Of a DNA stretch of 35,673 nucleotides, positions 1,513 to 9,807 are shown piece by piece (the stretch's first letter is position 1; each line of letters starts with the position of its first letter). Below the pieces are notes generated by a model. The model saw nothing but the letters and a program-made list of their open reading frames with translations, made no database searches and was not told where the DNA came from. The position numbers and the translations under genes were made by a program. Source of the DNA: an uncultured Verrucomicrobiota bacterium. Lineage in GTDB: Bacteria > Verrucomicrobiota > Verrucomicrobiia > Opitutales > Opitutaceae. The DNA lies in contig CAJCBL010000231.1 in the NCBI GenBank assembly GCA_903960515.1, forward strand, positions 1 through 35,673, read 5' to 3'.

Positions 1513-1539
1513 GGTAGAGTGGCGGCGATCCTCATCGGT

Positions 1540-2127
1540 ATGAAGAACATAATTGCAATCCTTCCCGCCAAGCCCGGCCAGGGCTCGGCTCTCGAAACAG
1601 TCCTGCGCGAGCAGGTGCAGCTCACCGCCCGGGAACCCGGAGCGATGGTCTACGATCTTCTGCGCGACGATGCGCAGCCCGACACGGTCGTGGTGTATGA
1701 GCGGTATCGCGACGCTGTGGCAAAGGATGCTCATCTCGCCACGCCGTATCTGGCTGAAACCTTGAAACGCTGCGCGCCGTTGCTTGGTGGAGCTCCTGTA
1801 TTGCAGCATCTCACGACTGCTGCGTGCATCCGGCACGAACACACGGTGGTCGAGGGCCGGGCCGCCGAGGTGGTGGTGTTGCCGATCGGACCGGTGAGCC
1901 TGGTCTATGCGCGCACGGAGCGAGGAGTGCTTGCCTGCGGCGCGATCAATCCGGCCGCGCTGGAGCGCTTCGGCGTCGCTGCGGCCCGGGTACGGCCGAC
2001 AACCGGCAGTTCTATAACGAGTCTCTCTGACCTGCTCGCAGGCGAGGTGCGCGAGGCAAACCCCGCAGCGCTAGCCTTGGGTATCGAGCCCGGGATGAGC
2101 GGACGGGAGGCGTTTGCGAAGCTCTGA
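1540..2127 (+). CDS. ABM-type monooxygenase fused to a DUF1805 (YunC-like) domain
   Basis: A 195-residue protein with two parts. Residues 1 to about 95 (MKNIIAILPAKPGQG..., GAMVYDLLRDD, VVYERYRD, HLATPYL) match the antibiotic-biosynthesis-monooxygenase fold, a small cofactor-free dimeric alpha/beta barrel found in quinol monooxygenases such as YgiN. Residues about 105-195 (ARTERGVLACGAINPAALERFG, then ALALGIEPGMSGREAF) match DUF1805, known from stand-alone YunC of Bacillus subtilis, whose function is unknown. The fusion is unusual. The start at 1540 is used because it opens directly on the ABM beta strand; an alternative start at 1519 adds seven unrelated residues. It follows an AraC-type regulator, suggesting inducible expression in response to a reactive small molecule. 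That role is inference. Confidence 0.82.
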   Translation: MKNIIAILPAKPGQGSALETVLREQVQLTAREPGAMVYDLLRDDAQPDTVVVYERYRDAVAKDAHLATPYLAETLKRCAPLLGGAPVLQHLTTAACIRHEHTVVEGRAAEVVVLPIGPVSLVYARTERGVLACGAINPAALERFGVAAARVRPTTGSSITSLSDLLAGEVREANPAALALGIEPGMSGREAFAKL

Positions 2128-4103: not shown

Positions 4104-4376
4104 ATGACCCATGAAACCTTGATACCCCTTGGCTGGGCTGCGGCCTTCACTGTATTCGGCGCCTTGCTCGGGATCGTGCTGGTGCTGGTGGCGGCCTCCT
4201 TCGTTCCTCGCCTGTTGAACAAGCTCACGCCCCACATCGACGAAGGGCGGGAGATAGCCCGCGGCAACCGTGCCGTGGCCCACTATTTCGGCTTGGTCTG
4301 CGGAGCCAGTATCCTCGGGCTCAGTCTGGTGGTGGCGGCGGCCGTGCTCGGCGGGATCATCACTGCTGCTCTCTGA
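4104..4376 (+). CDS. DUF350 (YjfL-like) small membrane protein
   Basis: A 90-residue integral membrane protein with two hydrophobic segments, about residues 8-32 and 58-86. The second contains the typical DUF350 stretch GNRAVAHYFGLVCGASILGL. Biochemical function is unknown. In other bacteria DUF350 proteins occur in clusters with TIM44-like, DUF4178, PspA-like and ATP-grasp (polyamine-conjugating) proteins, hinting at an envelope or stress role. The stop codon overlaps the start of the next gene (TGATG at 4374-4378), the classic sign of translational coupling, so the product probably works with the Hint/TIM44 protein. Confidence 0.82.
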   Translation: MTHETLIPLGWAAAFTVFGALLGIVLVLVAASFVPRLLNKLTPHIDEGREIARGNRAVAHYFGLVCGASILGLSLVVAAAVLGGIITAAL

Positions 4377-6955
4377 TGCACACCGGCACTTGGCGGAGTA
4401 TTGGGGTGGCGCTTGCGCTGGCAGCCGGCACCTGCACGGGGTTCGCCCGAGGCGGCGGGGGCTGCCTCGCGGCCGGCACGCTCGTGGCGACCCCCTCCGG
4501 CGACGTGGCGGTGGAGACACTCCAGGCGGGCTCCATCATATGGGGCTGCGTCGAAGGGCAGAGGGCTCCGGTGCGACTGGCCGCTGTGCGGCAGGTGGAG
4601 GCGGCGGAGTTCGTGGAGGTGGCCGGAGCCGATGGCGCGGTTGTGCTGGCTACCACAACACATCTTTTCCAGGTAGGCGCGGGTGAGTTCCGGGCGGCCG
4701 GCCAGCTCGCTGCCCCGGGATCGGGCGGCTTCCCGGTCGCGCGCCAGCGCTGCCCGGCGGCCCGGCCCGCCTACGATCTTCTCGTCGAGTCCGGTGGTGT
4801 GTTTTTCGCCAACGGTCTGCCGGTGCACAACAAGGGGTGTTTCCTTCCCGATACGCCCGTGCTTCTGGCCGACGGCACCTCGCGCCCGATCGGTGAGGTG
4901 CGGGTGGGTGATGGAGTGCTAGCCTTCGATGCCGCCGGTCGCACCGTGCCGGCCCGGGTGAAAGCGGTGCTGGTGCACGAGGTCGAGGGTTACCTCGTGG
5001 TGCGCACGGAGCGGGTCGAGCTGCGGGTTACCGAGGAGCATCCATTTTTCGTTGGCGAGGGCACGTTCAAGACCATCGGGTCGCTGCGGGTGGGCGACAC
5101 GGTGTGGGCGCACAACGGCGCGGGGGCGTTCACCCCGCAGCGGCTGCTTTCCGTGGAGCGGGTGCAGGCGCATACCACGGTATTCAATCTTCAGACCGAG
5201 GAGCCGCACACCTATTTCGCCGACGGGATCGCTGTGCACAACAAGGGCGGTGGTTGTTTCGCCGCTGGCACACTGGTGGCCACCCCCAGCGGGGAGCGCG
5301 CCATCGAGGAACTCGCGCTTGGCGACGAGGTGCTCGCTCCGGAGGCCGATGGTGCGCTGTGTACGACTACGGTCCAAGGGCTCTATCTCAATTTCACACC
5401 GTTGCTCACGTTGCATACCGACCGGGGAATGCTGGGCACCACCGCCGAGCATCCGCTGCTCGGTGACGGCGGAGGTTTCGCCCGCGCCGATGCCTTCGAG
5501 GTGGGCGACCGGCTTGTCTGTGCCGGAGGGCTGGCGACGATCGAGCGGATCGAGGCCGGGACCGACCCTGTGCCGGTGTTCAACCTGAGCGTGGGCGGGC
5601 CGCATGCTTTCTTCGCCGACGGTTTTGTTGCCCACAACAAGGGAGGCGGCGGCTTCCGCAGCAGTAGTCACTCCTCCGGGACCCGCAGCGGAGGCAGCGC
5701 GGACCCGGGGGCGCTGGTCGTCGTTGGCGGAATCATCGTGCTGGTGATCGTCCTCAAGGTGTTTGGCAAGGTGGAGAAGGGCGGCGGGGTGGAGCTCGAC
5801 TTCTGCTTCGACCGGTCGGCGATCGAAGGGAAGGCCGCCAAGACTCGGGCGATGCTCGAGTTTATTGCGCGGGTTGACTCGAAGTGGACGGCGGCGGCGT
5901 TGACCGAGGTGGCGCGTGAGACTTTTCTGGAGTTGCAGCGGTGCTGGATGGCCCGCGAATACGGGCCCATGCAGCCCCGCATGATGCCCGATCTCTACGA
6001 GCAGCATTGCGCGCAGCTCGCCGGGCTGCGGCAGACCCATGAGATCAACAAGCTCGACCAGCTTACGGTGGAAGGCGTGGACGTAGTGCACGTTTGCTAC
6101 ACCGACCGGCCAGCAGACCGCACCTTCACCGCGCTGATCACCGCCAACGCCCGTGATATCTATCTGGATGATCGCACTCAGGCGTTCCTGCGCGGGGATG
6201 CCGCCCCGGCGAGGTTCCAGGAATTTTGGACCTTCCAGATGCTCGAGGGCCAGTGGCGGCTGCGCGACATCGAGCAGACCCGCGAGTCCGCCGCGCTCAC
6301 CACGGAGAATCTCTTCGAGCAGTTCACGGACGTAGGGCGCGACCAGATCTACGGCGCCACCGCCGGGGAGACCGGCCCAGCCGGTCCGGCTCTGCCTGCG
6401 GCGGTCTTGGATAAGGACGACAAGATCGGGCGCCTGCTCAACTTCCTGGTTCAAACCGATCCGATCTGGAAACGCGAGGCGATGACGGCCACGGCCCGCC
6501 GCGTGTTCCTCAACGTGCTCCTCGCTTGGCAGGACGGCCGACCGGAGGCCTTCACCGGCGTAGCCCTCAGCCCGGAGATCGACACCCATCTGCGCGCGGT
6601 CAACGCGAGCAACACCGCGGGCAGTTTGAGGGTTGAATACCGCAATCTGTGTGTTCGCAAGGTGGAGATCGTACACGTGGACAACCGCGACGACCGCACT
6701 CTCGACAACTTCACCGCCCGGATCGGCGCCCACGCGCAGGTTGTCGTGCTGCGTGGAGAGACCGTGGTCCGGCGCGATCCCGATGTGCGCGCCTGGGTGG
6801 ACTACTGGACGTTTGGGCGCGACAACGGCCGCTGGGTGTTGCGCGAGATTCTGCCCGATGAGCAGGGCGCCTCCATCGTCGACCGTGAGAATGTTGATGA
6901 GGGCAGTTCGGCGCAGATGCTCGAGTGGTACTATTCGAAGCCACGGGCAACGTGA
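4376..6955 (+). CDS. Triple-Hint, membrane-spanning, TIM44-like domain protein
   Basis: An 859-residue protein with a novel-looking layout. Residues 1-25 form a signal peptide ending before a GGGG run. Three Hint (intein-like) modules follow at residues 30-152, 155-289 and 294-421. Each starts with Cys (CLAAGT, CFLPDT, CFAAGT), has a block-B T-x-x-H (TTTH, TEEH, TAEH) and ends in His-Asn followed by Lys-Gly. Then come a Gly/Ser-rich linker (KGGGGFRSSSHSSG), one membrane helix (about 446-462) and two related TIM44-like domains (about 480-645 and 680-850), each ending in an F/Y-W-TF...W.LR.I motif. The signal peptide plus basic residues after the helix predict periplasmic Hints and cytoplasmic TIM44 domains. 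No homing endonuclease is present. The residue after each Asn is Lys rather than Cys/Ser/Thr, so Asn-driven cleavage is more likely than canonical splicing. Function is unknown. Confidence 0.88.
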   Translation: MHTGTWRSIGVALALAAGTCTGFARGGGGCLAAGTLVATPSGDVAVETLQAGSIIWGCVEGQRAPVRLAAVRQVEAAEFVEVAGADGAVVLATTTHLFQVGAGEFRAAGQLAAPGSGGFPVARQRCPAARPAYDLLVESGGVFFANGLPVHNKGCFLPDTPVLLADGTSRPIGEVRVGDGVLAFDAAGRTVPARVKAVLVHEVEGYLVVRTERVELRVTEEHPFFVGEGTFKTIGSLRVGDTVWAHNGAGAFTPQRLLSVERVQAHTTVFNLQTEEPHTYFADGIAVHNKGGGCFAAGTLVATPSGERAIEELALGDEVLAPEADGALCTTTVQGLYLNFTPLLTLHTDRGMLGTTAEHPLLGDGGGFARADAFEVGDRLVCAGGLATIERIEAGTDPVPVFNLSVGGPHAFFADGFVAHNKGGGGFRSSSHSSGTRSGGSADPGALVVVGGIIVLVIVLKVFGKVEKGGGVELDFCFDRSAIEGKAAKTRAMLEFIARVDSKWTAAALTEVARETFLELQRCWMAREYGPMQPRMMPDLYEQHCAQLAGLRQTHEINKLDQLTVEGVDVVHVCYTDRPADRTFTALITANARDIYLDDRTQAFLRGDAAPARFQEFWTFQMLEGQWRLRDIEQTRESAALTTENLFEQFTDVGRDQIYGATAGETGPAGPALPAAVLDKDDKIGRLLNFLVQTDPIWKREAMTATARRVFLNVLLAWQDGRPEAFTGVALSPEIDTHLRAVNASNTAGSLRVEYRNLCVRKVEIVHVDNRDDRTLDNFTARIGAHAQVVVLRGETVVRRDPDVRAWVDYWTFGRDNGRWVLREILPDEQGASIVDRENVDEGSSAQMLEWYYSKPRAT
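4463..4831 (+). other. Hint module 1 (intein-like domain)
   Basis: Residues 30-152 of the 859-residue protein. Block A is CLAAGTLVATPSGDVAVETL. Block B is around ATTTHLFQV, with a Thr and a His three residues apart. The C-terminal strand is YDLLVESGGVFFANGLPVHN, ending in the His-Asn pair. It lacks the EHP seen in modules 2 and 3 and is the most divergent in its centre, so its activity is the least certain. Only Lys-Gly separates it from module 2. Confidence 0.85.
4838..5242 (+). other. Hint module 2 (intein-like domain)
   Basis: Residues 155-289. Block A is CFLPDTPVLLADGTSRPIGE, block B is VTEEHPFFV, and the end is VFNLQTEEPHTYFADGIAVHN. All hallmark positions of a bacterial intein-like Hint fold are present (Cys1, T-x-x-H, penultimate His, terminal Asn). 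The start (FLPDT) differs from modules 1 and 3, so it is not a recent copy of either. Confidence 0.88.
5255..5638 (+). other. Hint module 3 (intein-like domain)
   Basis: Residues 294-421. Block A, CFAAGTLVATPSGERAIEEL, nearly repeats that of module 1, suggesting internal duplication. Block B is GTTAEHPLL and the end is VFNLSVGGPHAFFADGFVAHN. It is followed by KGGGGF and the Gly/Ser-rich linker, so cleavage after its Asn would free a product starting Lys-Gly-Gly-Gly-Gly ahead of the membrane helix. Confidence 0.88.
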
Positions 6956-7093: not shown

Positions 7094-8272
7094 TTACGCC
7101 CATTCGTTGCCGAGCCCGGCCACCGCAGCGGCGAGAAGCTCGGGGGCGCGGGCTAGGGCTTCGGCGAGCGGCAGAGCGGCGGGGGAGATCGCGTGGGCGG
7201 CGACGCCTGACGGCATGGCGGAGGCGGGGAGTGGGCCGAGCGAACCGGCGAGCACGACCACGCGTTTGCCGGCTGCTGCGGCGGCGAGGGCGAGCGCGCC
7301 CGGGCCTTTGCCAGAGAGCGAGGTGGAGTCGAAGCGGCCTTCGCCGGTGATCACCAGATCGGCGGAGGCGATACGCGTTTCGAGGTCGAGCCAGTCGTGC
7401 ACGAGCGCCCAGCCGGGGACGAGTTGCGCGCGGGCCGCCGTCATGAGCCCGAAGGCGATGCCGCCAGCGGCACCGGCGCCGTGCGAGTGGGCCAGTGCGG
7501 GCGCCTGGCCGCAATGGGCGGAGAGCAGCGCCGCCATTCGGATACTGGCGGACACGAGCTGTGGGAGATCGGCTGGGCGCAGGCCCTTCTGCTGGGCGTA
7601 GGTCGCCGCGGCGCCGGCGGGGCCGAGCAGCGGGTTGGCGACATCGCAGGCGACCAGCAGAGGCGGGAAAGAGGAGGGCACGCGGCCGGCGAGTTGCGCG
7701 ATGTGTCCCCACGCCGCCGTGGTCGGAGGGAAGAGCGGCGCACGGTGCTGGTCGAGGAAACGCAGCCCGAGCGCGGCGAGAGTGCCAAGCCCAAGGTCGT
7801 GGGTGGCGCTGCCACCTACGCCGAGGAGGATGGCGCGGGCGCCGCACTTGACCGCAGCGGCGAGGAGTTGGCCCGTGCCGTAGCTGGTGGTGCGCCACGG
7901 GTTGCGCTTGTCGGGCGGAACAAGAGCGAGGCCGCTGGCGGCGGCCATCTCGACGACCGCCACGGTATCGGAATCGCGGAGCTGCGGGATGCCGAGCCGG
8001 GCCCGGGCTGAGTCGGGGACTCGGGCCCATGAGACCATGCCGAAGGCGGCGATGCGCGACTCACCAAGGGGGCCCACTACGCGGACGGTCGCGAGTTCAC
8101 CGCCCACTGCAGCCGTTAGAATCCGAGCGAAACCGTCCCCTCCGTCGGAGAGCGGGGCGGAGTCGATAATCCAGTGCGGATGCGCAGCCTGGAGTGTTTC
8201 GCTGGTGATGCGGCAGGACTCGGCCGCAGTGAGAGAGTCCTTGAATTTGTCGAACGCGATGAGGACGCGCAT
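7094..8272 (-). CDS. glxK: Glycerate 2-kinase
   Basis: A 392-residue cytoplasmic kinase of the GlxK/GarK family, which phosphorylates D-glycerate to 2-phosphoglycerate for entry into glycolysis. The N-terminus MRVLIAFDKFKDSLTAAE is the family signature. It is followed by APLSDGGDGF, EMAAASGLALV, SYGTGQLL, GVGGSATHDLGLGTLAALG, the ACDVANPL...GA segment and DLVITGEGRFDSTSLSGKGP near the C-terminus. The frame stays open far upstream to 9205, but the family start is the Met at 8272. It lies 62 bases after the cca stop on the same strand and may be co-transcribed. Length and motifs are intact. Confidence 0.93.
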   Translation of the reverse strand: MRVLIAFDKFKDSLTAAESCRITSETLQAAHPHWIIDSAPLSDGGDGFARILTAAVGGELATVRVVGPLGESRIAAFGMVSWARVPDSARARLGIPQLRDSDTVAVVEMAAASGLALVPPDKRNPWRTTSYGTGQLLAAAVKCGARAILLGVGGSATHDLGLGTLAALGLRFLDQHRAPLFPPTTAAWGHIAQLAGRVPSSFPPLLVACDVANPLLGPAGAAATYAQQKGLRPADLPQLVSASIRMAALLSAHCGQAPALAHSHGAGAAGGIAFGLMTAARAQLVPGWALVHDWLDLETRIASADLVITGEGRFDSTSLSGKGPGALALAAAAAGKRVVVLAGSLGPLPASAMPSGVAAHAISPAALPLAEALARAPELLAAAVAGLGNEWA

Positions 8273-8334
8273 GGAAGGCGAATGGGTCGTAGTGGACCTA
8301 TGGGGTGACGGAAGCGGAACCAAAAAGAATGCAC

Positions 8335-9807
8335 CTACCCGGCCGGGGGGAACGATTTCGCGGCGAGCTGTTGGGCGAGCCAGGTGGTGGCTCCTGCGTT
8401 GTCGGCGAACGCTCCGTCGAGCTGGGCTTCGTAGGCGGCGTGGAGGATGGCCTTGAAGTGTGGACTCGGAGAGAGCCCGGCGGCGAGCAGGTGGCGGCCC
8501 AGCAGGAGGGGGGCGGGCGCGGCGTTGGCTATGGCGAGCTCGCGGGCGGCAGTGGCGAGTTGTGCGATCCGGCGTTCGGTGCCTGCGCACAGCCGCGGCG
8601 GGCGGCCGAGGTGATCGGCGCGCAGCACGAGGAGTAGTTGAGCGATGGAGGCGGGGGCGAGGCGGCGGGCGAGGCGGCGGAGGAGCGCGGGGTTGGGCTC
8701 GCCGTCGGCCGGCCAGCCGAGGTGGGCGAAGTGGTTTTCCACCAGTGCGCGCACGAACGGGCGGGTGTCCAAGGGCGAACCGATACGTGCGAGAAAAGCC
8801 TCGGCGAGGGGCCCGCCGGCGGGTTCGTGGCCGGGGCTTACCCAGCGCAGTTGGCCGCGTTTCTCCTCCTGGCGGGTGGTCGAGGGCTTGCCGAAATCGT
8901 GGGCCAGCACGCCGAACATGACCTCGCGGCGCAGCTCGGGGGCGAGCTCCTGCCACTCGGGCAGGGCGGCGAGGGCGTCGACGCAGTGGCAGGTGTGGAT
9001 AAATACATCGCCTTCGGGGTGCCACTCCGGCTCCTGCGGCACGCCCACCAGGGAGGCGATCTCGGGGAAATGCACGATCCAGCCGGTTTCCTGAAGCACG
9101 CGCAGCCCTGCCGAGGGGTGGCGGCTGTGGGCCGCCCATTTCTCCCACTCCACCCAGACTCGCTCGACAGGGAGCTCCAGGTAGGTCGCCGAGATGCTGC
9201 GACATAGCGCCGCGGTCTCGGGTGCGAGAACGAGGTTGAAGCGGCCGGCGAACTGCATCGCACGCAGCACGCGTAGCGGGTCCTCGGTGAAGGCGGAGCT
9301 GGTGTGGCGGAGCACTCCGGCGACGAGGTCGATCTGGCCGCCGTGGGGGTCGATGAGCTCTCCGGTAAGCGGATCGAGAGCCATCGCGTTGAGGGTGAAA
9401 TCGCGTCGGGCGAGCGCGTCGGCGATCGGGAGGAATGGGTCCACACCTACGTCGAAGCCGCGGTGGCCGGCGCCGGTCTTGGTTTCCCGGCGAGGGAGGC
9501 TGAAGTCGTAGTCTACGCCGGCTAGGCGCAGCTTGATCACGCCGAAGCTCTTGCCTACGGGATCGGTGGCGCCGAAGCGCGAGAGGGTGGAGGCGAGTTG
9601 CTCGCCGGAGACGCCTAGTACCTCGATGTCGAAATCCTTCGCGGGGCGGCCGCAGAGCCAGTCGCGCACACAGCCTCCCACGAGTAGTGGCCGGCCGATG
9701 GCGCGCACGGAGTGCAGCGCACCCAGTAGCGGCGCGGGAAGGGCGGGAGGTGGGGGAAGGTTGGGCACGGTGGGACGGGTCAGCCTAGATTCAGAGTTCG
9801 GATTCAC
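8335..9807 (-). CDS. cca: CCA-adding enzyme / tRNA nucleotidyltransferase with HD domain
   Basis: A 490-residue class II nucleotidyltransferase that adds or repairs the 3' CCA of tRNA. It shows the catalytic motif LLVGGCVRDWLCGRPAKDFD (Gly-Gly-x-x-Arg-Asp with metal-binding Asp-x-Asp) near residue 41, RRDFTLNAMAL near residue 134 and EDPLRVLRAMQFAGRFN near residue 175. An HD phosphohydrolase domain follows (HTCHCVDAL, then AHDFGKP), as in E. coli-type CCA enzymes that also have phosphatase and phosphodiesterase activity. A poly(A) polymerase paralogue cannot be excluded, since the two share these motifs. It lies between DUF423 and glycerate kinase genes on the same strand. Confidence 0.9.
   Translation of the reverse strand: MNPNSESRLTRPTVPNLPPPPALPAPLLGALHSVRAIGRPLLVGGCVRDWLCGRPAKDFDIEVLGVSGEQLASTLSRFGATDPVGKSFGVIKLRLAGVDYDFSLPRRETKTGAGHRGFDVGVDPFLPIADALARRDFTLNAMALDPLTGELIDPHGGQIDLVAGVLRHTSSAFTEDPLRVLRAMQFAGRFNLVLAPETAALCRSISATYLELPVERVWVEWEKWAAHSRHPSAGLRVLQETGWIVHFPEIASLVGVPQEPEWHPEGDVFIHTCHCVDALAALPEWQELAPELRREVMFGVLAHDFGKPSTTRQEEKRGQLRWVSPGHEPAGGPLAEAFLARIGSPLDTRPFVRALVENHFAHLGWPADGEPNPALLRRLARRLAPASIAQLLLVLRADHLGRPPRLCAGTERRIAQLATAARELAIANAAPAPLLLGRHLLAAGLSPSPHFKAILHAAYEAQLDGAFADNAGATTWLAQQLAAKSFPPAG

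Follow-up and report, generated by a model that had tools for sequence, protein, structure and literature searches.

What is a row of intein-like Hint modules for in a bacterial membrane protein? The question is raised by a gene of contig CAJCBL010000231.1 (assembly GCA_903960515.1), analysed as a stretch of 35,673 nucleotides from an uncultured Verrucomicrobiota bacterium of the Opitutaceae and called the window hereafter. Its protein of 859 amino acids has three Hint modules lined up ahead of a predicted transmembrane helix and two Tim44-like domains. The initial annotation regarded it as a single odd protein; it is instead a member of a conserved family, and 44 distinct members from several phyla, reduced from 74 gene copies, were collected. 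The family keeps the catalytic residues of its Hint modules, has an almost fixed lysine behind each of them, and is accompanied by a small upstream gene that had been overlooked. The layout in the window is as follows.

4376..6955, + strand: gene for the Hint-array Tim44-like protein, 859 amino acids (open reading frame, Pfam)
4376..4447, + strand: signal-peptide-like segment, residues 1-24 (hydrophobic; helix 6-13 in the model, low confidence)
4448..4462, + strand: R-G-G-G-G ahead of Cys1, residues 25-29
4463..4831, + strand: Hint module 1 (type 1), residues 30-152, with Cys30, His96 and His151-Asn152
4832..4837, + strand: linker Lys-Gly, residues 153-154
4838..5242, + strand: Hint module 2 (type 2), residues 155-289, with Cys155, His222 and His288-Asn289
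5243..5254, + strand: linker Lys-Gly-Gly-Gly, residues 290-293
5255..5638, + strand: Hint module 3 (type 3), residues 294-421, with Cys294, His359 and His420-Asn421
5639..5710, + strand: Lys-Gly4 (K422-GGGG) and Gly/Ser-rich linker, residues 422-445 (disordered and of low confidence in the full-length model)
5711..5779, + strand: predicted transmembrane helix, residues 446-468 (helix in the model, mostly pLDDT <50)
5855..6274, + strand: first Tim44-like domain, residues 494-633 (Pfam PF04280)
6398..6826, + strand: second Tim44-like domain, residues 675-817 (best stretch of NF033779, 28.9 bits, cut-off 80)
4104..4376, + strand: gene for a DUF350-like small membrane protein, 90 amino acids (Pfam DUF350, PF03994, E 3.6e-5)

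Hint modules in a Tim44-like protein

The three modules, placed at these residues already by the initial annotation, are borne out by profiles, catalytic residues and a structural model. In the whole protein, Pfam finds PT-HINT (8.4e-21), Hint (5.7e-19) and Hint_2 (8.4e-17), all comfortably above threshold, and TIGR01443 (intein_Cterm) matches three stretches. Each module has a T-x-x-H block B, which is TTTH in module 1. When the modules are cut apart, their best Hint E-values are 4.8e-7, 1.2e-10 and 1.7e-10 for modules 1, 2 and 3, respectively; that of module 1 is a Hint_2 match restricted to its first 49 residues, and TIGR01443 gives 14.9 bits on the excised module 1, just below the cut-off of 15.6. 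Module 1 is also detected by a hidden Markov model (HMM) of the family's modules, yet it was among the sequences from which the HMM was built. In the tree of all modules it falls in the type-1 clade (see below), with the longest branch of the window's three (0.95 versus 0.34 and 0.36).

An AlphaFold2 model of the array has a mean predicted local distance difference test score (pLDDT) of 86.3 and a predicted template modelling score (pTM) of 0.57, so that the single domains are modelled fairly confidently and their mutual arrangement is not. The full-length model (mean pLDDT 74.9) consists of the array, a disordered linker, the helix 446-468 and two alpha+beta repeats. When modules 2 and 3 are compared with solved structures, the 20 top-ranking rows reach Z values of 19.5-21.7 at root-mean-square deviations of 1.3-2.8, and include Tetrahymena BUBL1 BIL2, a bacterial intein-like (BIL) domain (21.7), DnaB inteins (20.8), a Clostridium thermocellum BIL (20.4) and the Hedgehog Hint domain (19.7), values less than 1 apart being treated as ties. 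BUBL1 BIL2 is also the top fold match in Foldseek (E 9.3e-10), and the closest sequence match in the PDB is 2lwy, a BIL (E 2.5e-24). The modelled Hint horseshoe fold is thus found by structure comparison for modules 2 and 3, which the match list covers, and module 1 is assigned by its profiles, catalytic residues and position in the tree. Identity to module 1 is only 27% for module 2 and 26% for module 3, and similar Hint arrays or single modules are encoded by 43 other distinct genes; the array is therefore neither a chance resemblance nor an assembly artefact. The window's genome (5.5 Mb in 379 contigs) holds a single match to the protein.

As had been read from the translated frame, the modules are separated by nothing but KG and KGGG, and the Asn of each is followed by Lys, not by Cys, Ser or Thr. 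Behind them, Tim44 (PF04280) matches with 2.7e-17 and 63.7 bits against a curated cut-off of 29.6; Pfam counts two Tim44 stretches, and the alpha+beta pattern is repeated in the full-length model. Throughout the family a hydrophobic, signal-like segment precedes the array (38 of the 38 members examined), and a hydrophobic segment at the place of the transmembrane helix follows it (43 of 43, with best-window hydropathy of 1.34-3.65). From these two segments, the array would lie outside the cytoplasm, and signal cleavage would fall after Ala24.

A conserved family with three module types

Members of the family were collected in two ways. A first scan of one genome per species, with patterns including HNKG peptides, gave 26 loci encoding relatives; besides the window, the other 17 members were found by a profile of the Tim44 part that begins at the Lys following the last Asn (position +1). 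The records of the 26 loci are labelled Verrucomicrobia, Lacunisphaera, Lentisphaerae, Kiritimatiellaeota, Phycisphaerales, Planctomycetia, Deltaproteobacteria, Syntrophales, Myxococcales, Elusimicrobia, Riflebacteria, Terriglobia, Anaerolineales, a Micrarchaeota bin and Legionella massiliensis, and are metagenome-assembled genomes except for the last. The lone odd labels, such as Anaerolineales and Micrarchaeota, may come from mis-binned contigs. In the window's phylum, the Tim44-part profile matches 27 of 387 genomes (seven strongly). For the phylum to which an Elusimicrobia locus belongs, the count is 16 of 198 (three strong, five middling), for that of a deltaproteobacterial locus 42 of 247 (six strong, one being the fragment L118), and for the L. 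massiliensis family six of 112 (five strong). A search with the whole protein in the window's own order matches 11 of 177 genomes, and the Tim44 part is reached only by the window's own match. Scores of the Tim44 profile separate cleanly: everything above 200 bits carries Hint modules except L118, and nothing below 100 bits does; the fragment L067 (159 bits) falls between the two groups. Entry to the family set required a Hint match, and the fragments L118 (370 bits for Tim44) and L067, both without the array region, were excluded. No phage matched the family, and viral contigs contained no relative of the Tim44 part; 17 plasmid records match, each confined to the Hint part and each covering less than 80% of the query. 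The collections searched thus give no sign that the gene is carried by phages or plasmids.

Arrays of two to four modules, which the initial annotation proposed to look for ahead of Tim44-like domains, are present in 31 of the 38 members readable end to end: one module is found in seven, two in nine, three in 20 and four in two. (L039, on a cut contig, was left out of the module counts and of the charge test described below; L015, L030, L033, L038 and L093, with unreadable N-termini, were left out of the counts of module number.) Modules were parsed as ending in HN, followed by K or M and then G. They tile every array completely, so that no module inside an array was missed by this rule. Module lengths are 105-167 amino acids and the linkers between modules have 2-7 residues. 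The conservation of the catalytic residues in homologues is complete: Cys1, the block-B His and the terminal His-Asn are each present in 105 of 105 complete modules, and the block-B Thr in 104. The neighbours of the scissile bonds are nearly as constant, with Gly at -1 in 104, Lys at +1 in 104 and Gly at +2 in all 105, at a mean column identity of 36% in the module alignment (74 of the 105 modules). Where the N-terminus is readable (39 members), Cys1 of the first module is preceded by exact RGGGG in 34; the remaining five, single-module members from the Elusimicrobia search, have RA and then 7-11 Gly there. Over ten pairs of members, the ratio of nonsynonymous to synonymous substitution rates (dN/dS) is 0.05-0.39 in the modules and 0.07-0.31 in the Tim44 part, at dS of 0.38-2.07 with some pairs near saturation; purifying selection holds the modules about as firmly as the host protein. 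In L018 and L019, module 1 has an in-frame insertion (167 amino acids in total), which we would guess to be a translated short genomic repeat, and L098 has one within module 3 (159 amino acids); the catalytic residues are kept in all three.

The modules belong to three old types, each with its own flanks and largely following the position in the array. In the tree of 105 modules, whose alignment is short for the number of rows and leaves some forks open, 29 of 32 first modules lie on one side of a branch supported 100/94 (type 1), while type 2 comprises 40 modules (support 99/96) and type 3 comprises 33 (99/95); the three modules of the Micrarchaeota bin are not placed. Type 1 always has RGGGG before it and KG-Cys after it (29 of 29), and KGGG followed by Cys comes after 24 of the 40 type-2 modules. 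The block-F position, which in inteins is tied to Asn cyclisation, has His or Asn in none of the 29 type-1 modules, in 39 of 40 of type 2 and in 33 of 33 of type 3. Some arrays have been remodelled. For example, L028 has two type-2 modules, the third module of L021 and L032 is a type-2 copy, and type 3 is missing in L143-L145, from three genomes of the Legionella family. Single-module arrays are of type 2 in L034 and L043 and of type 3 in L099-L103.

Other Hint genes served as a control. The module profile was run on two phyla (247 and 240 genomes, hits with E <= 1e-8), up to 17 candidates per genome being scored within the stretch fetched around each hit. At least 31 other Hint reading frames were found, two being pieces of one gene. 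Among those listed, 27 have one Hint match and four have two partial matches, taken to be a single Hint interrupted by an insertion; no listed frame is matched by the Tim44 profile. Fourteen listed frames have a readable HN end: at +1, 13 of them have C, S, T, A, G, N or D, and one (L204/L213) has Lys, directly after which the frame stops; several others end without HN. The tandem arrangement, considered unusual from the window alone, and the +1 Lys distinguish the Hint-Tim44 family within what was searched. PT-HINT itself is rare in the window's order (five of 132 genomes). As a separate observation, one contig of genome G117 carries the same Hint start twice, at a distance of about 2 kb (L012 and L013) and in different reading frames, one very long and one of 122 amino acids; they form no adjacent array and are unrelated to the Tim44 family.

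The upstream partner gene and Hint-less relatives

Every one of the 35 members whose sequence extends at least 420 bases ahead of the array has a DUF350-like gene of about 90 amino acids directly upstream. Three more members contain pieces of this gene, and the remaining six have too little or no upstream DNA. In the window, its stop codon and the start codon of the Hint-Tim44 gene overlap as TGATG; its product scores 24.3 bits against a curated cut-off of 26 and is hence named DUF350-like. Among Tim44 relatives without Hint modules, the gene is upstream of two of 51 with upstream DNA (three of 52 before L101, a family-member fragment, is removed). These two, L097 and L115 from the Elusimicrobia search, are Tim44-like without Hint modules or a Gly stretch, and possibly represent the pair before or after loss of the array.

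The DUF350-like gene is the only constant neighbour, and the others vary between genomes. Twenty of the many neighbour frames were scanned, with Pfam matches in 14 (e.g., cation efflux, acetate kinase twice, radical SAM and integrase). One BLAST cluster recurs, upstream in five loci (L020, L023, L024, L029 and L031) and downstream in L028; its L020 copy, the only one scanned in that frame, is LemA by Pfam. DUF350 is discussed in a polyamine and ATP-grasp context in the part of one paper available to us (PMC11237479); that context was set aside for the DUF350-like gene, the other neighbours varying between genomes. A role in anti-phage defence was likewise rejected: the sole PADLOC match was a weak one to a homing endonuclease (residues 260-289, E 0.0018), with none for the DUF350-like protein.

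The array was thought to sit in a glycine-rich stretch that Tim44-like proteins normally have, so that its removal would restore an ordinary linker. This holds for 19 of 59 Hint-less Tim44 frames, which have R(x)GGGG behind a hydrophobic stretch at the corresponding place, and not for the other 40. A Gly stretch is thus present here without Hint modules in part of the wider family, and a linker of that sort would result if an array were excised.

What the array may do

We tentatively favour, as a reading that falls a little short of probable, complete self-excision of the modules with joining of the glycine/lysine linkers to Lys. The protein would be exported behind its signal peptide and held by one transmembrane helix, with the BIL-like modules occupying the glycine-rich N-terminal linker. 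Each module would activate the preceding Gly-Cys1 bond through an N-to-S acyl shift, assisted by the block-B TxxH, and would cut behind itself through Asn cyclisation; the amine of the +1 Lys would then take over the glycine thioester. The modules would fall out, leaving RGGGG, KG, KGGG and KGGGG... joined as a short Lys/Gly tail before the helix and the Tim44-like domains. The array would be active and would join as well as cut, perhaps with some part for the DUF350-like protein, and the row of predicted self-excising domains with its partner gene suggests a so far undescribed membrane-protein assembly or tagging.

The argument for this reading is the conservation of the residues for both half-reactions, namely the -1 Gly, Cys1 and TxxH on the N-side and His-Asn on the C-side. 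If C-side cleavage alone mattered, Cys1 and TxxH would drift, and if N-side activation alone mattered, His-Asn would drift; none of them does. After signal cleavage, the acyl donors would be only RGGGG, KG and KGGG, and the retention of the N-side chemistry would be best explained by joining or transfer of these pieces. The +1 Lys, kept in 104 of 105 modules against one of 14 readable ends among the other listed Hint genes, probably has a job. The initial annotation rightly noted that the canonical +1 nucleophile is missing, but joining may still occur: in the passages seen of one review (PMC5874633), A-type BILs are able to cleave, and some to splice, without it.

Several points weigh against joining. 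Lys is not Cys, Ser or Thr; A-type BILs cannot ligate according to the portion seen of another review (PMC7765530), and Cys1 could be kept for aiding Asn cyclisation. Type-1 modules, lacking the block-F His/Asn, may differ in activity. Of the 44 members, 26 came from patterns that included HNKG peptides and so favoured those with the motif. There are exceptions: a Ser at -1 in one module of L093 and a Met at +1 in L101, a single-module member whose gene has an in-frame stop further along in the Tim44 part. A positive-inside charge test across the transmembrane helix goes in the expected direction in only 17 of 43 members and gives the topology no support. R(x)GGGG is absent from 40 of the 59 Hint-less relatives, among them many short forms that the deltaproteobacterial search brought in.

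Cleavage without joining, by which the modules would cut behind Asn and drop off to leave a mature Tim44-like protein starting with Lys-Gly4, is a less likely outcome, improbable without being far-fetched. BILs mostly yield cleaved products in the excerpts available from two papers (PMC7765530, PMC7664689), +1 has no C/S/T, and the free K-GGGG end would resemble the R-GGGG that signal peptidase would leave before the array; C-side cleavage alone, however, needs neither Cys1, TxxH nor the -1 Gly, which vary about as little as His-Asn does. Transfer in trans, on the model of BUBL or Hedgehog, would instead put RGGGG, KG or KGGG as tags on lysines or lipids of a partner such as the DUF350-like protein. 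We consider it unlikely, even though BUBL1 BIL2, the top fold match, is described in the text seen of PMC8616854 as conjugating its N-flank to Lys of various substrates, the small membrane partner gene is constant, and the flanking pieces are tiny and nearly constant. The pieces are of 2-7 residues only, without a folded modifier domain, the +1 Lys already supplies an amine in cis, and the partner link could mean a plain complex. About equally doubtful is a variant suggested by analogy, in which the +1 lysines would take the glycine thioesters by their side-chain amine, or the tags would be put on the DUF350-like partner; Lys may react by its alpha- or by its epsilon-amine. If the side chain were used, an isopeptide ladder RGGGG-K-G-K-GGG-K-GGGG... 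with free alpha-amines would result. A bacterial membrane protein would then bear a ubiquitin-like lysine-glycine linkage made without ATP.

Tandem arrays of beta-domains often serve as binding stalks, and the number of modules varies from one to four, as might be expected if the array were an unreactive binding or spacer region outside the membrane; with catalytic residues invariant and scissile-bond neighbours nearly so over 105 modules, this is quite improbable. Selfish inteins that invaded the same linker repeatedly are hardly credible. The modules are Hint domains and the family is patchy between phyla, but a length of 105-167 amino acids is low for an intein that carries a homing endonuclease, PADLOC finds a single, weak endonuclease-profile match, located at the C-terminal end of module 2, the type of a module goes largely with its position, and the array tracks the DUF350-like gene.

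Among known systems, the self-excision and joining proposed here would be carried out by modules closest to A-type BILs, which share a Hint fold of about 130 amino acids, Cys1, a terminal His-Asn and a +1 residue other than C/S/T. Cys1 and His-Asn are present in 105 of 105 modules (HN being part of the parsing rule, yet the arrays tile without gaps), and +1 is Lys in 104 and Met in one; the C. thermocellum BIL 2lwy is presumably of A-type as well. The retained HN excludes B-type BILs, which lack the C-terminal His-Asn, and the Lys is unlike the C/S/T of Class 1 inteins. A-type BILs are typically found in variable regions of non-conserved proteins, as far as the parts seen of two reviews go (PMC7765530, PMC5874633), whereas one to four modules stand in tandem here, at a fixed place of a conserved protein and with near-fixed Lys-Gly flanks. 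BUBL (Tetrahymena BUBL1 BIL2, PDB 6y75 and 6tmm) also has more than one BIL per locus, a Gly-rich flank before Cys1 and a lysine acceptor, which recalls the conserved +1 Lys; in the excerpts seen, BUBL1 BIL2 forms isopeptide bonds to Lys without ATP on different substrates (PMC8616854), and RGG precedes Cys1 (PMC9200820). The ciliate BILs accompany folded ubiquitin-like domains, unlike the linkers of 2-7 residues ahead of Tim44-like domains in bacteria, and the R of R(x)GGGG is also found in Hint-less relatives and so is no Hint-specific mark. Pretoxin HINT domains of polymorphic toxins (PF07591) match by profile, but a Tim44-like domain and no toxin tip lies downstream here; the other Hint genes listed from the two phyla are single, with varied +1 residues. 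Bacterial Tim44-like proteins (PF04280; NF033779, TimA) share the Tim44-like domains, and part of the Hint-less relatives share the signal segment, the Gly-rich linker and the transmembrane helix, without the array and, in 49 of 51, without the DUF350-like neighbour. The C-type BIL of Bdellovibrio (Dori-Bachash 2009), a bacterial variant outside types A and B, may overlap the family; in a passage of PMC9185962 it is linked to the predator-specific domain PPS-1.

Among open-licence PubMed Central (PMC) papers, none was found for Tim44 with a Hint domain or for Tim44-like with intein, none by title was about Hint arrays in searches for tandem Hint, intein or BIL, and those for bacterial intein-like, Hint domain and tandem did not treat tandem arrays in the passages returned. 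BIL domains have been described mainly as scattered, in variable proteins and of unclear use. Here, up to three specialised BIL types adjoin one another in several phyla, between flanks that hardly vary and next to a constant neighbouring gene, which makes the family a clear genetic unit for asking what bacterial Hint domains are for. Should joining indeed use the conserved lysine, protein chemistry would gain a self-contained ligation device whose linkers are simply KG.

Three other frames of the window have partial or fused domains. On the minus strand, the 404-residue frame at 9972-11186 matches DUF423 over its C-terminal residues 293-384 only, and its start may be over-long; the glycerate kinase profile spans only residues 314-698 of the 703-residue frame at 7094-9205 (minus strand). 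At 1519-2127 (plus strand), an antibiotic-biosynthesis-monooxygenase-like domain is fused to a C-terminal DUF1805.

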